Translations under genes and position numbers: made by a program | The notes under the pieces: generated by a model | The model's database searches: none | What the model saw: only the letters and a program-made list of their open reading frames with translations | Told to the model about the DNA's origin: nothing | From: an uncultured Clostridia bacterium | GTDB taxonomy: Bacteria; Bacillota; Clostridia; Christensenellales; UBA1242 | Direction: 5' to 3' | NCBI GenBank assembly: GCA_947627545.1 | Contig: CANQWK010000005.1 | Location: 16,377-80,376, forward strand | Length of the DNA: 64,000 bases | In this document: in pieces, positions 32,945-39,325 of the stretch | How positions within the stretch are numbered: position 1 is the first letter of the stretch | Layout of the letters: the number at the start of each line of letters is the position of its first letter

Positions 32945-33598
32945 ATGCAAAAGTTTAAAAAAATAAAAAATTATTTAAATGAACTTTTTCCAAATGCAAA
33001 ATGTGCATTAAATTTTACAACTCCTTACGAGTTATTAATTGCCGTTATGCTTTCCGCTCAATGCACAGACAAACGTGTAAACCTTGTTACAAAAGATTTA
33101 TTTAAAATTGCAAACACTCCGCAAAAAATTATAAATCTTGGAGAAAATAAACTAAAACAAATTATTTATCCGTGCGGATTTTACAATGCAAAAAGTAAAG
33201 CAATTTTAAAAACAAGTGAAGATTTAATAAATAAATTTAATGGACAAGTTCCTTCTACATTAGAAGAACTTACATCTTTGCAAGGTGTTGGCAGAAAAAC
33301 GGCTAATGTGGTTTTAGCAAACGCCTTTGGCGAGCAAACAATTGCTGTTGACACACATGTTCATAGGGTTTCTAAACGCCTTGGCTTAACTAGTGAAAAC
33401 TCCACTCCGTTGCAATGCGAACTTGACTTACTTAAAATTGTACCTTACGAGCAACGAAGTTTAACTCATCATCAAATAATTTTATTTGGGCGTGAAGTTT
33501 GTAAAGCAATAAAACCTAATTGTGAAATTTGCAAATTAAAAGACATTTGTTTATATTTCAATGCTAAAACTAAAACAAAAACTAAAAGCAATAAATAA
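32945..33598 (+). CDS. nth: Endonuclease III
   Basis: MLSAQCTDKRVN; LQGVGRKTANVVL; VDTHVHRVS; CxxxxxxCxxCxxxxxC FeS motif. Confidence 0.96.
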   Translation: MQKFKKIKNYLNELFPNAKCALNFTTPYELLIAVMLSAQCTDKRVNLVTKDLFKIANTPQKIINLGENKLKQIIYPCGFYNAKSKAILKTSEDLINKFNGQVPSTLEELTSLQGVGRKTANVVLANAFGEQTIAVDTHVHRVSKRLGLTSENSTPLQCELDLLKIVPYEQRSLTHHQIILFGREVCKAIKPNCEICKLKDICLYFNAKTKTKTKSNK

Positions 33599-33625: not shown

Positions 33626-34906
<1,281 letters not shown>

Positions 34907-34967
34907 GCAGCTTAGCTGCCTCTACTCACAAAACAAACACACCTTAAAACGAATAATTAGGAGAAAT

Positions 34968-35453
34968 ATGTTTATTTACAGAAAAGCCAACTTAAAAGAT
35001 TTAAACACAATTTGGGATAAAGATATTAAAGAAAACAAAGACGATAAAAGATATATTAAATGGAAAGAATCTTTTATTAACTCAAACAAAAATGGAGATA
35101 TCGTTACTTTCGTTGTTTTAAACGATGGCGACCCAATTGGACAATGTACAATAGTTCTTAATGTAAACAACATAAAATTTAAATGTAAAAATTTTTTATG
35201 TGATGGTAAAGAAAAAGCATATCTTTCCACTATAAGAATTGAAAAACAATTTGAAGGGCAAGGTCATATTTCAAAACTTGTTAAAACAGTGGAAGATTTT
35301 GCTAGAAAGAAAGGATTTTATTACTTAACAATAGGAGTTGAAGCAAAAGAAAGTCGTAATCTTGCGATATATTTGCATTTTGATTATACTAATTTTATAA
35401 CAAGTGAATTAGACGACGACACCCTTATCTTGTTTTATCAAAAATCATTATAA
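34968..35453 (+). CDS. GNAT-family N-acetyltransferase
   Basis: Start at 34968 has SD TTAGGAG; STIRIEKQFEGQGHISKLVKTVEDFARKKG. Confidence 0.82.
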   Translation: MFIYRKANLKDLNTIWDKDIKENKDDKRYIKWKESFINSNKNGDIVTFVVLNDGDPIGQCTIVLNVNNIKFKCKNFLCDGKEKAYLSTIRIEKQFEGQGHISKLVKTVEDFARKKGFYYLTIGVEAKESRNLAIYLHFDYTNFITSELDDDTLILFYQKSL

Positions 35454-35495: not shown

Positions 35496-35789
35496 ATGAT
35501 AACAAAAACTGAAAGAATTAAATTAAGAAGCCTTGCATCCACAATAAAACCAACAATTTGGGTTGGCAAAGAAGGTTTTAGCGAAAACGTTTTAAAACAA
35601 ATTGACGAAGAACTTTTTAATCACGAACTTATTAAAATAAGTTTGCAAGAAAATGTTAGTCCACTAAGCGAATTTGAATTAACCGAAATGGCGGTAAAAC
35701 TAGGTGCAGAAGTTGTAACAACAATTGGCAGAAAAATTGTTTTATACAAACACAGCGAAAAAAAAGGCATTAAGCACGTTTTAGCTTAA
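35496..35789 (+). CDS. yhbY: YhbY-family RNA-binding protein (CRM domain)
   Basis: LRSLASTIKPTIWVGKEGFSENVLKQIDEELFNHELIKISL. Confidence 0.95.
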   Translation: MITKTERIKLRSLASTIKPTIWVGKEGFSENVLKQIDEELFNHELIKISLQENVSPLSEFELTEMAVKLGAEVVTTIGRKIVLYKHSEKKGIKHVLA

Positions 35790-36307: not shown

Positions 36308-36961
36308 TTATTCAACTCGTGTGTAATTTTTAATTTCAAAATCGGTAGATTTTATTTCGTTTTTAATATTTTGACTTTGTTTTGGTTTAAACAAATTTAA
36401 AATGTTTGATAGTCCTCCCGAAGAAGAAAAAGCCTTTATTAACGAAGAAAAATCTAAGTTTGAATTATCTTTTTCATTTTCATTGTTAGAATTATTTAGC
36501 ATAGAGATTAAATTACCAAAACTGCCTGTTCCAACACCTTTAAACAACCCAGACAATAATGGCAATAAATTTTTAAAATCTAAATTAAAACCAAAATTTT
36601 GAGGTGGGCATTTAGGTTTTGGTTTAGGTTTTGGCACACAGTTACAATTGCCCTTGATAAAATTATTGTTTAAATAAAAATTTGGCACACTTTCATAAGG
36701 TTGCTGAAAAACAACTTTTTTAGGCGAGCACATTTTTTGAGATTTTAAATTTTTGTTATCAAATGGTAAAAATTGCGGATATATATTTTGCGTAAAATTT
36801 GAAGATGAATTATTTACATTTGCATTTGGAAATAAATTATTTTGTTTTAAATTTGAAGATGAATTGTTTATTTTTGAATTAGGTGACGTATTATTGACAC
36901 TCCAATTTTGTATATAAGCGTTTGAGTCTACATATATTTTATTTTGTTCGTTTAATTCCAT
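36308..36961 (-). CDS. Hypothetical Asn/Ser-rich low-complexity protein with KPKPKPK motif
   Basis: Near-repeat SKINNSSSNLKQNNLFPNANVNNSSSNFTQN; CVPKPKPKPKCPP. Confidence 0.6.
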   Translation of the reverse strand: MELNEQNKIYVDSNAYIQNWSVNNTSPNSKINNSSSNLKQNNLFPNANVNNSSSNFTQNIYPQFLPFDNKNLKSQKMCSPKKVVFQQPYESVPNFYLNNNFIKGNCNCVPKPKPKPKCPPQNFGFNLDFKNLLPLLSGLFKGVGTGSFGNLISMLNNSNNENEKDNSNLDFSSLIKAFSSSGGLSNILNLFKPKQSQNIKNEIKSTDFEIKNYTRVE

Positions 36962-37038
36962 ACATTTATATATGAAAATATTTTTTGTTGTGCATTAACA
37001 AATTTAAAATTGATTGCATAAAAATAAACGAGGTGAAC

Positions 37039-37317
37039 ATGCCAAGAGATTTTAAAACTTTTGCAGAACAAAACAAAAATATTGTAAATGAAAATGTAAC
37101 CAAAGCAAATGATTATCAAGAATTAATAAACAAATATAAAGACATGGACAATAATGAATTAATGCAAAATTTGTTTAACGAAGCCAGCAAATTAAAACAA
37201 GAAGGCAAACTAGATTCTAACACTTTAAACAATTTAAAAACTACAATTGCTCCATTTCTAAACAATGAGCAACAATCAATGTTAAATTCTTTAATTAATG
37301 CAATTAATTCAAATTAA
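37039..37317 (+). CDS. Small hypothetical protein (MPRDFKTFAEQN...)
   Basis: Start at 37039 preceded by CGAGGTGAAC; helical, charged. Confidence 0.65.
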   Translation: MPRDFKTFAEQNKNIVNENVTKANDYQELINKYKDMDNNELMQNLFNEASKLKQEGKLDSNTLNNLKTTIAPFLNNEQQSMLNSLINAINSN

Positions 37318-37446: not shown

Positions 37447-38562
37447 ATGAATAAAAATAAAATAAGCCCTCAACTTTTAAATTCAGTTTCTGTTTTAAAT
37501 AGTTACAACAACAAAACACAAGTTGTAATATCTTGTAACAATTTTGATGTTGCAAAACATTTTTTGCAAAATTATAAATATCAATTTGTTCCATACCGGT
37601 TTGCGAATTGTTTTTGTTTAAATGCCGATTATGATGATTTAAATATTTTTTCTAATCAAAAATTTATTAATTACATTCATGGTAATTCGCAGGTGAAAAT
37701 AGAGGCCGAAGATAAAGATTTATTAAACATTTCTGCCCTAAACGAAAACAAATTTTTTGGTCAAGGCGAAACAATATGTTTTATTGATACCGGAATTACA
37801 CCTCATTTTGATTTTGTTTTTCCTAAAAATAGAATTGTTAAATTTATTGATTTAATTAACAAAGAAAATTCATTTAACAATCTTTATGACGACAACGGCC
37901 ATGGCACTTTTGTTGCTGGCATTGCGTGTGGAAATGGAATTTTTAACAAACAATATTCTGGCTATGCCCCTCTAGCCAACATAATTGTTATAAAAGCACT
38001 GGGAGAAAATGGCGACAGCAACTCAAACAAAATTTTAGATGCAATGCAATGGGTTTACGAGAATTATAAAGCATATAATATCGGCATTGTGTGTATGAGT
38101 TTTGGAGCAGATGCAATTATTGAAAATGACCCACTTTCTAAGGGCGCTGAAAGTTTATGGAAACGTGGGCTTGTTGTGGTTGCAGCCGCTGGCAACAGCG
38201 GACCTGAAAGCAAAAGCATTAAATCGCCTGGCAATAACCCTTACATAATAACAGTAGGAGCACTTGATAGTTCAAATTTAACAATTGCAGAATTTAGCAG
38301 CCGCGGCCCCACAATTTATGGCCATAAACCTGATTTGCTTGCCCCAGCCGTTAATATTGTATCTTGCAATAATAAACTTACTCCTTACACAAAAATGTCT
38401 GGCACAAGCGTGGCTGCTCCAATTGTTGCAGCAGTTTGTGCTATAATAAAATGCAAATATAAAAATTTTACAAACCAAGATGTTAAAAATTATTTATTGG
38501 CACATTGTGTAAAATTAACAGGCGATTTAGACAAAGAAGGTGCAGGTTACTTAAAATTTTAA
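37447..38562 (+). CDS. S8 family serine peptidase (subtilisin-like)
   Basis: Catalytic triad FIDTGI..., DNGHGTFVAGI, MSGTSVAAPIVA. Confidence 0.92.
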   Translation: MNKNKISPQLLNSVSVLNSYNNKTQVVISCNNFDVAKHFLQNYKYQFVPYRFANCFCLNADYDDLNIFSNQKFINYIHGNSQVKIEAEDKDLLNISALNENKFFGQGETICFIDTGITPHFDFVFPKNRIVKFIDLINKENSFNNLYDDNGHGTFVAGIACGNGIFNKQYSGYAPLANIIVIKALGENGDSNSNKILDAMQWVYENYKAYNIGIVCMSFGADAIIENDPLSKGAESLWKRGLVVVAAAGNSGPESKSIKSPGNNPYIITVGALDSSNLTIAEFSSRGPTIYGHKPDLLAPAVNIVSCNNKLTPYTKMSGTSVAAPIVAAVCAIIKCKYKNFTNQDVKNYLLAHCVKLTGDLDKEGAGYLKF

Positions 38563-38564
38563 AT

Positions 38565-38593
38565 TTGATTTTTTTGCTAAAATATGCTAATAT
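38565..38593 (+). promoter_or_regulatory. Promoter TTGATT-17-TAATAT, 6 nt before ATG at 38600 (leaderless candidate)
   Basis: Direct reading. Confidence 0.6.
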
Positions 38594-38599
38594 ATTTTT

Positions 38600-39325
38600 A
38601 TGATAAAAATAGAAAATGTTAGCATTAAATATATAAAAGATTATTATTCGCTTTATAACCTAAATTTAGAAATTAACGGCAATACAATTTTGTTTGGAGA
38701 TGAAACAAGCGGAAACAATTTTTTATTAAGAATTTTAGCAAAAATAGATAAGCATTATGAGGGCAACATTTTTGTTGACAATGTAAATTTAAAACAATTA
38801 AAAGATAAAGATTTAAACATTGCATATTTGCCAAAACAAAATTATTTTTTTAAAAATAAAAGTATATTAAAAAATTTAACTTATCCATTAAAAATTAGAA
38901 AAATTGACGGTAAAAAAGCAAAAAATGATGTAATTTTGATGTTAAAACAATATAATTTAGAAAATTTTTTAAAAAATATAGAAAATTCTAATTTAATTTT
39001 TAACAATAATTACAATTTAAAAAAATTAAAAATTCGCAATTTTGAAAAAGATTTTTTAAATTGTAAAATGAAATATTTAAGTTTTTCTATGCAAAAAATT
39101 ATTTTACTTTTGCGAGCAATTATTTGGAAACCTAATTATATTTTATTAGAAAATTTTTTTGAAAATTTAGATAGTAATTATTATGAACTTGCAAATGAAA
39201 TTTTATTGAATTTAACAAAAACAATTATAATAGCAACCGAAAAACAAAATGGAAATTTAACATCTTATAAAAATTTTTATGAAATATCCTTTAATGCTGG
39301 CAGCATTGTTACACCTAACAACTAA
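38600..39325 (+). CDS. ABC-transporter ATPase-like protein with degenerate motifs
   Basis: ABC fold order preserved, but Walker A = GDETSGNNFL, signature = LSFSMQ, Walker B = ILLENFFENLD. Confidence 0.75.
   Translation: MIKIENVSIKYIKDYYSLYNLNLEINGNTILFGDETSGNNFLLRILAKIDKHYEGNIFVDNVNLKQLKDKDLNIAYLPKQNYFFKNKSILKNLTYPLKIRKIDGKKAKNDVILMLKQYNLENFLKNIENSNLIFNNNYNLKKLKIRNFEKDFLNCKMKYLSFSMQKIILLLRAIIWKPNYILLENFFENLDSNYYELANEILLNLTKTIIIATEKQNGNLTSYKNFYEISFNAGSIVTPNN

Follow-up and report, generated by a model that had tools for sequence, protein, structure and literature searches.

The gene studied here was predicted to encode an ABC ATPase fold with all of its ATP motifs eroded, and the question that it raises is whether such a gene is a pseudogene or is maintained and, if so, in what capacity. 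It lies in the window, that is, the whole stretch of 64,000 nucleotides analyzed, in an uncultured member of a genus of small-genome gut Clostridia (genomes of about 1 Mb). The features of the locus are collected in Table 1, and the protein is referred to below as pseudo-ABC.

Table 1. Features of the pseudo-ABC locus, in window positions
Feature	Position	Strand	Remarks
Divergent Asn/Pro-rich protein	36308..36961	-	Shares intergenic promoter region with SM
Small helical protein SM	37039..37317	+	Overlaps S8 gene in many congeners
S8 (subtilisin-like) protease gene	37447..38562	+	Pfam Peptidase_S8, 9e-47; Asp/His/Ser motifs in sequence
SigA-type promoter of pseudo-ABC: TTGATT, 17 nt, extended -10 TGCTAATAT	38565..38593	+	Spacing conserved in genus and in loci L093 and L122
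Pseudo-ABC ATPase, stand-alone nucleotide-binding domain, 241 aa, all ATP motifs replaced	38600..39325	+	ATG start, 241 codons plus stop
Codons of former Walker A GDETSGNNFL, residues 33-42	38696..38725	+	
Codons of YPLKIRK, residues 95-101, Q-loop/helical-domain face	38882..38902	+	Most conserved segment; mean column entropy 0.38 versus 1.63 overall
Codons of former signature LSFSMQ, residues 160-165	39077..39094	+	
Codons of former Walker B/catalytic Glu YILLEN, residues 180-185	39137..39154	+	

Fold and ATP motifs of pseudo-ABC

The AlphaFold model of pseudo-ABC was confident (pLDDT, 92.2; pTM, 0.89), and its top Foldseek matches were all nucleotide-binding domains (NBDs) or ABC ATPases, with TM values of about 0.7 to 0.78. 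Pfam ABC_tran (PF00005) covered most of the NBD (E value of 1.2e-9 and 39 bits, the curated cut-off being 25), and a profile of 35 pseudo-ABC orthologues matched NBDs of the PDB end to end, at best with 5e-40. These results confirmed the predicted ABC ATPase fold: pseudo-ABC is a full-length ABC NBD, with a RecA-like and a helical subdomain. The protein stops after the NBD, so that the C-terminal regulatory (OB/TOBE) domain is absent (MsmX/UgpC proteins have about 350 to 370 aa). A sequence search with pseudo-ABC led to PDB chains of MalK-, MJ0796-, and FtsE-type NBDs, and its best NCBIfam and PDB matches mixed WtpC, CysA, PotA, and MalK-type NBDs with FtsE and MJ0796.

The erosion of all ATP motifs in the original prediction, with the D-loop kept, also stood. 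At the place of the Walker A pattern GxxxxGK[ST], the protein reads GDETSGNN, the Lys of SGK[ST] being replaced by Asn, and the LSGGQ signature is likewise replaced (Table 1). Walker B reads YILLENFF, with Glu for the Asp and Asn for the catalytic Glu, and the H-loop position, ATEK, has no His, while the D-loop NLD is retained. The Walker A Lys was missing from pseudo-ABC in every aligned congener. About 20 other ABC stretches of the same genome exceeded the PF00005 cut-off; those that could be resolved had Walker A and an Asp-Glu Walker B and, by a simple pattern, mostly a standard signature, L143 being left unresolved by the motif patterns. Judged by these motifs, pseudo-ABC is the odd one out among the ABC ATPases of its genome.

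Selection, promoter, and neighborhood in the genus

One clear open orthologue per genome was found in 34/34 genomes of the genus, always without an internal stop. An extra partial match in one of them (G001), which counted a TAA, represented the same region aligned in a second segment; the open reading frame (ORF) of that genome is complete in the alignment. In close congener pairs, omega was about 0.1 to 0.3 by the Nei-Gojobori method, absolute values being rough given that AT bias lies outside its model. Thus, the pair L040-L044 had a dN of 0.05 and a dS of 0.22 (omega of about 0.2), the dN/dS values of L038-L040, L038-L044, and L024-L025 were 0.18/0.66, 0.20/0.82, and 0.28/0.94, respectively, and pairs such as L023-L048 had a pN of 0.12 at a pS of 0.61. 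Distant pairs, whose median omega values were 0.4 or higher, were left out of account because of saturation or AT bias. The neighboring genes gave lower values (0.05 for S8 and 0.03 for ClpC), that of pseudo-ABC being several times higher. These values indicate that pseudo-ABC is under purifying selection, weaker than that on S8 or ClpC, and we consider the constraint moderate because the gene evolves faster than its neighbors.

The promoter, which had been described as looking intact, proved to be better supported than stated. The TTGATT box occupies positions 38565 to 38570, and the extended -10 element (TG-C-TAATAT) ends at 38593, 6 nt ahead of the ATG at 38600; in nearly all congeners, this ATG is not preceded by a Shine-Dalgarno sequence. 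In 29 of the 32 congeners scored, an extended -10 (TGnTAtAAT) was found at the same short spacing to the ATG, with a gap of 6 nt and rarely of 7 to 9 nt; of the three others, L028 and L033 were off by a letter or two each. Among the controls, 0 of about 20 to 30 had an extended -10 at that place for clpC, obg, yhbY, mcsA, and S8, nor was there any for mcsB and ctsR, and a Shine-Dalgarno sequence was nearly always present on clpC, obg, yhbY, mcsA, mcsB, and ctsR. The promoter persisted where other genes separate S8 from pseudo-ABC (L046 and, with one letter changed, L033), and L093 and L122, from two other genera in which the gene order is identical, had this -10 spacing too. Since a start 6 to 7 nt past the -10 would coincide with the ATG, the pseudo-ABC mRNA is predicted to be leaderless. 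The conserved promoter was missed by a generic promoter scan, which gave no useful information at such an AT content. Translational coupling of pseudo-ABC to S8 was rejected in view of the gene's own promoter and the absent Shine-Dalgarno sequence. A leaderless extended -10 was also observed for nth (window 32945) in 8 of the 16 congeners scored.

With the gene open in 34/34 genomes, omega clearly below 1, promoter spacing conserved, and a confident fold, it is extremely improbable that pseudo-ABC is undergoing ordinary decay as a pseudogene on its way out of a genome-reduced lineage, even though its ATP motifs are free to vary within the genus and its evolution outpaces that of the neighboring genes. 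The original prediction had named a dN/dS ratio near 1 or frameshifts in close relatives as the marks of such decay; omega was not near 1, and the congener frames had no stops. Its description as a maintained pseudo-ATPase is right because of these omega values, the stop-free frames, and the confidently predicted NBD fold.

The S8 protease gene ahead of pseudo-ABC was recognized both by Pfam and by synteny, as expected from the prediction, and lies directly upstream in about 30/33 assessable congener loci. The protease has no obvious signal peptide. SM was present in 272/396 genomes sampled from the order, so SM, together with S8, looks like an uncharacterized conserved module. The structure model of SM was poor (pLDDT, 73; pTM, 0.39), and a fold search with it gave no result. 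CATA..TA motifs (window about 36962 to 37038) were found upstream of SM-S8 in 23/30 cases and of the divergent gene in 17/25, compared with 0 to 2 in controls. They resemble the -10 boxes of mother-cell sporulation sigma factors of the SigE/SigK type. Spo0A occurs in nearly all congeners, which would suggest sporulation in very small genomes of about 1 Mb. Because of the CATA..TA motifs and Spo0A, SM-S8 is probably a sporulation unit, and pseudo-ABC has a vegetative-type promoter; the differing promoter types argue against simple coexpression of pseudo-ABC with S8.

Orthologues in the family and origin of the gene

A single-protein search led to seven related loci in metagenome-assembled genomes. 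In the family sample (309 genomes, 42 genera), ABC matches were present in all; clear pseudo-ABC orthologues scored below about 1e-35, and weaker matches (about E 1e-20) were ordinary paralogues. In the 42 sister-genus loci, the Walker A Lys was found in 35 and Arg in four (L084, L090, L116, and L117), both being lost in L093, L114, and L122. The catalytic Glu was kept in 2/42 and the H-loop His in 0/42, while an SGG signature was found in 0/42 and in none of the aligned orthologues of the family. The tree, a quick IQ-TREE of 69 rows with a mostly open or poorly supported backbone, required the Lys state to change six times or more. The motif counts and the tree changes together indicate that the hydrolysis motifs were lost first and the nucleotide-binding Lys later and repeatedly. 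The window's genus, L093 (g50), and L122 (g39) share an ABC gene straight after SM-S8, no adjoining gene for an HTH_30 protein (see below), and the leaderless -10; whether they form one clade is left unsettled by this tree.

In 25/42 sister-genus loci, the ABC gene is followed by an ORF of about 100 to 165 aa of the HTH_30 type, which overlaps it or starts within about 140 nt. The Pfam domain (PF13556, PucR C-terminal helix-turn-helix) was confirmed in the three ORFs tested. Throughout the family, HTH_30 exceeded the cut-off in 92/306 genomes, nearly always as a single copy, and it was located by hand less than 1 kb downstream of pseudo-ABC, on the same strand, in 48/48 genomes with comparable coordinates. 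The window's genus had 0 matches over the cut-off and hence no linked DNA-binding partner of this kind, nor did HTH_30 occur in the large genus g41; overall, about two thirds of the family genomes are without it. This absence rules out HTH_30 as a universal partner. The HTH_30 domain is that found at the C terminus of CdaR/PucR regulators; unlike CdaR, the sister-genus proteins (about 115 aa) beside pseudo-ABC have no N-terminal sensor part, and the window's genus lacks the whole gene. Nothing relevant was found in the literature on CdaR/ABC pairs. In genus g3 (L036 and L100 to L102), the ABC-HTH_30 pair stands ahead of plsX-rnc-smc and not near SM-S8.

Longer relatives were found in similar surroundings. 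In two genera of the family (L119 to L121), the ABC members have 335 to 337 aa, with an Asp-Glu Walker B in one, and the gene order is ABC, HTH_30, and then nth-obg, the same neighborhood as part of the window's (nth at 32945, obg at 33638, and yhbY at 35496, followed by SM, S8, and ABC). An acetyltransferase-like ORF between obg and yhbY (window 34890 to 35453) is found elsewhere only in a few congeners (L040, L041, and L044). Outside the family, locus L166 (genome G349, family f15) encodes an intact MsmX-type ATPase of 417 aa (GPSGCGKST, LSGGQ, and LLDEP). A permease-like ORF, a CdaR-like regulator of full length that carries HTH_30, and an S41 protease are also encoded there, followed by SM. 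The intact orthologue with a permease that the original prediction had proposed to look for thus exists in this related family, none being found inside the family itself. In families f17 (346 to 350 aa) and f20 (220 aa), degenerate NBDs overlap or abut S41 (CtpA-like) genes near SM (loci L155 to L158 and L171). The S41/S8 association may be an ancestral neighborhood rather than a function.

We read pseudo-ABC as a descendant of a sugar-importer ATPase of the MsmX/UgpC/MalK type, from an MsmX-type ATPase/CdaR locus; its placement there and not with another NBD of the CUT1/molybdate/sulfate group comes from gene neighborhood and from the relatives of 335 to 417 aa. It has the same NBD fold and a similar Q-loop/helical segment as the multitask ATPases of this type (Bacillus subtilis MsmX, PDB 6yir; PMC7658222), and full-length relatives of MsmX type occupy the same neighborhood in related families. 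Unlike these ATPases, pseudo-ABC has all ATP motifs replaced and no C-terminal regulatory domain, and no importer permease set was detected in its genus.

Pseudokinases are well known. In contrast, maintained stand-alone ABC pseudo-NBDs are hardly described, a full-text search of a limited literature collection having returned nothing related. A degenerate NBD as such is a known kind of protein; what is new is that it stands alone, extends throughout a family, and has lost the Walker A Lys several times. The living relatives form a graded series, from an intact MsmX-type ATPase through proteins with Walker A and no hydrolysis motifs to proteins with no ATP motif, which makes it testable what NBDs do besides burning ATP. 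As a caution, such genes in reduced genomes should not be annotated as transporter ATPases.

Possible roles of pseudo-ABC

The best-conserved part of the protein is YPLKIRK and not the former ATP site, for which entropy within the genus was 1.88 at Walker A and 1.84 at the signature. Individual fold residues (R44, G55, F84, N92, L97, R100, and R172), scattered along the protein, are likewise among the most conserved in the genus. In MalK and MsmX, the Q-loop region and a hydrophobic pocket accept the coupling (EAA) helix of the permease (PMC7658222). Conservation of YPLKIRK may, however, reflect a constraint inherited with the fold and not an interface still in use. As had been predicted for the window, no permease gene was found near pseudo-ABC there or in the congener loci (neighborhood and synteny check). 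BPD_transp_1 (PF00528) gave one permease per genome in 30/34 congeners, near a separate ABC locus, and an extra protein of 539 aa only in the window's genome (G000). With this one Pfam model as the search tool, we take the genus to have no sugar-importer permease set.

The conserved face could mean that pseudo-ABC is the noncatalytic half-site of a transporter, pairing with an active NBD on a permease in the manner of heterodimeric ABC transporters that have one degenerate site. The same face docks the transmembrane domains in MalK/MsmX (PMC7658222), active NBDs are present in other ABC systems of the genome, and degenerate nucleotide-binding sites are frequent in type I exporters, where the catalytic Glu and the signature have likewise been lost under selection (PMC7756269). 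We nevertheless find this role unlikely: there is no neighboring permease gene in the genus, the one PF00528 permease of most congeners lies near a separate ABC locus, and the signature region, which would face the partner NBD, is not conserved. The degenerate NBDs of exporters are transporter parts with a partner NBD, whereas pseudo-ABC stands alone and has lost the Walker A Lys too. A role as adaptor or inhibitor of the neighboring protease module (SM and S8 here and S41 in related families) has the recurrent linkage in its favor, since SM-S8 is found no more than about 6 kb away in 28/42 sister-genus loci, in addition to the close association with S8 in congeners and with S41 in f17 and f20. 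It is still a doubtful proposal, as the ABC gene of several genera has no SM-S8 nearby and the sporulation-like promoters of SM-S8, set against the SigA-type promoter of pseudo-ABC, make joint control improbable.

Retention of the first Gly and of the GD/GN start of the loop in most congeners (Gly33 in 31/34) would be expected if the altered ATP site still bound a nucleotide or another small ligand, but the P-loops vary by species (SGNN, DGTS, GPLT, LGTS, and others) with no shared replacement motif, and we regard such binding as very unlikely. A somewhat unlikely scenario for the whole family is that the dead NBD, derived from an importer ATPase, forms a split CdaR-type switch with the truncated HTH_30 protein and serves as its regulatory half; hydrolysis would have been lost first and ATP binding later, several times independently, and the window's genus would work without ATP or HTH.

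Our favored, still tentative account is that pseudo-ABC is a noncatalytic NBD of MsmX-type descent that gave up its motor role and retained a docking or regulatory one, partner binding being the inferred step. The protein is probably now a binding or regulatory protein and not the engine of a pump. It would bind its partner through the Q-loop/helical-domain face (YPLKIRK and its surroundings), as the corresponding face of MalK/MsmX docks a permease. Given that the genus is without a detectable sugar-importer permease set and that sister genera pair the ATPase with HTH_30, a transporter is a less likely partner than a regulatory or cytoplasmic protein. Candidate binders would be the SM-S8 module, a membrane protein, or, by the HTH_30 link seen in sister genera, a regulator.

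In Escherichia coli, the ATPase subunit MalK also restrains the transcription activator MalT, a precedent for a side job of an NBD. Along similar lines, the lineage may have kept the signaling or docking half of a MalK-like protein, the half by which MalK holds MalT, and dropped the motor half. The likeness, offered only as an analogy, is that the NBD gene of sister genera is linked to that of a DNA-binding protein. However, HTH_30 is not MalT, and MalK keeps its ATPase and its C-terminal domain, the latter being missing from pseudo-ABC.
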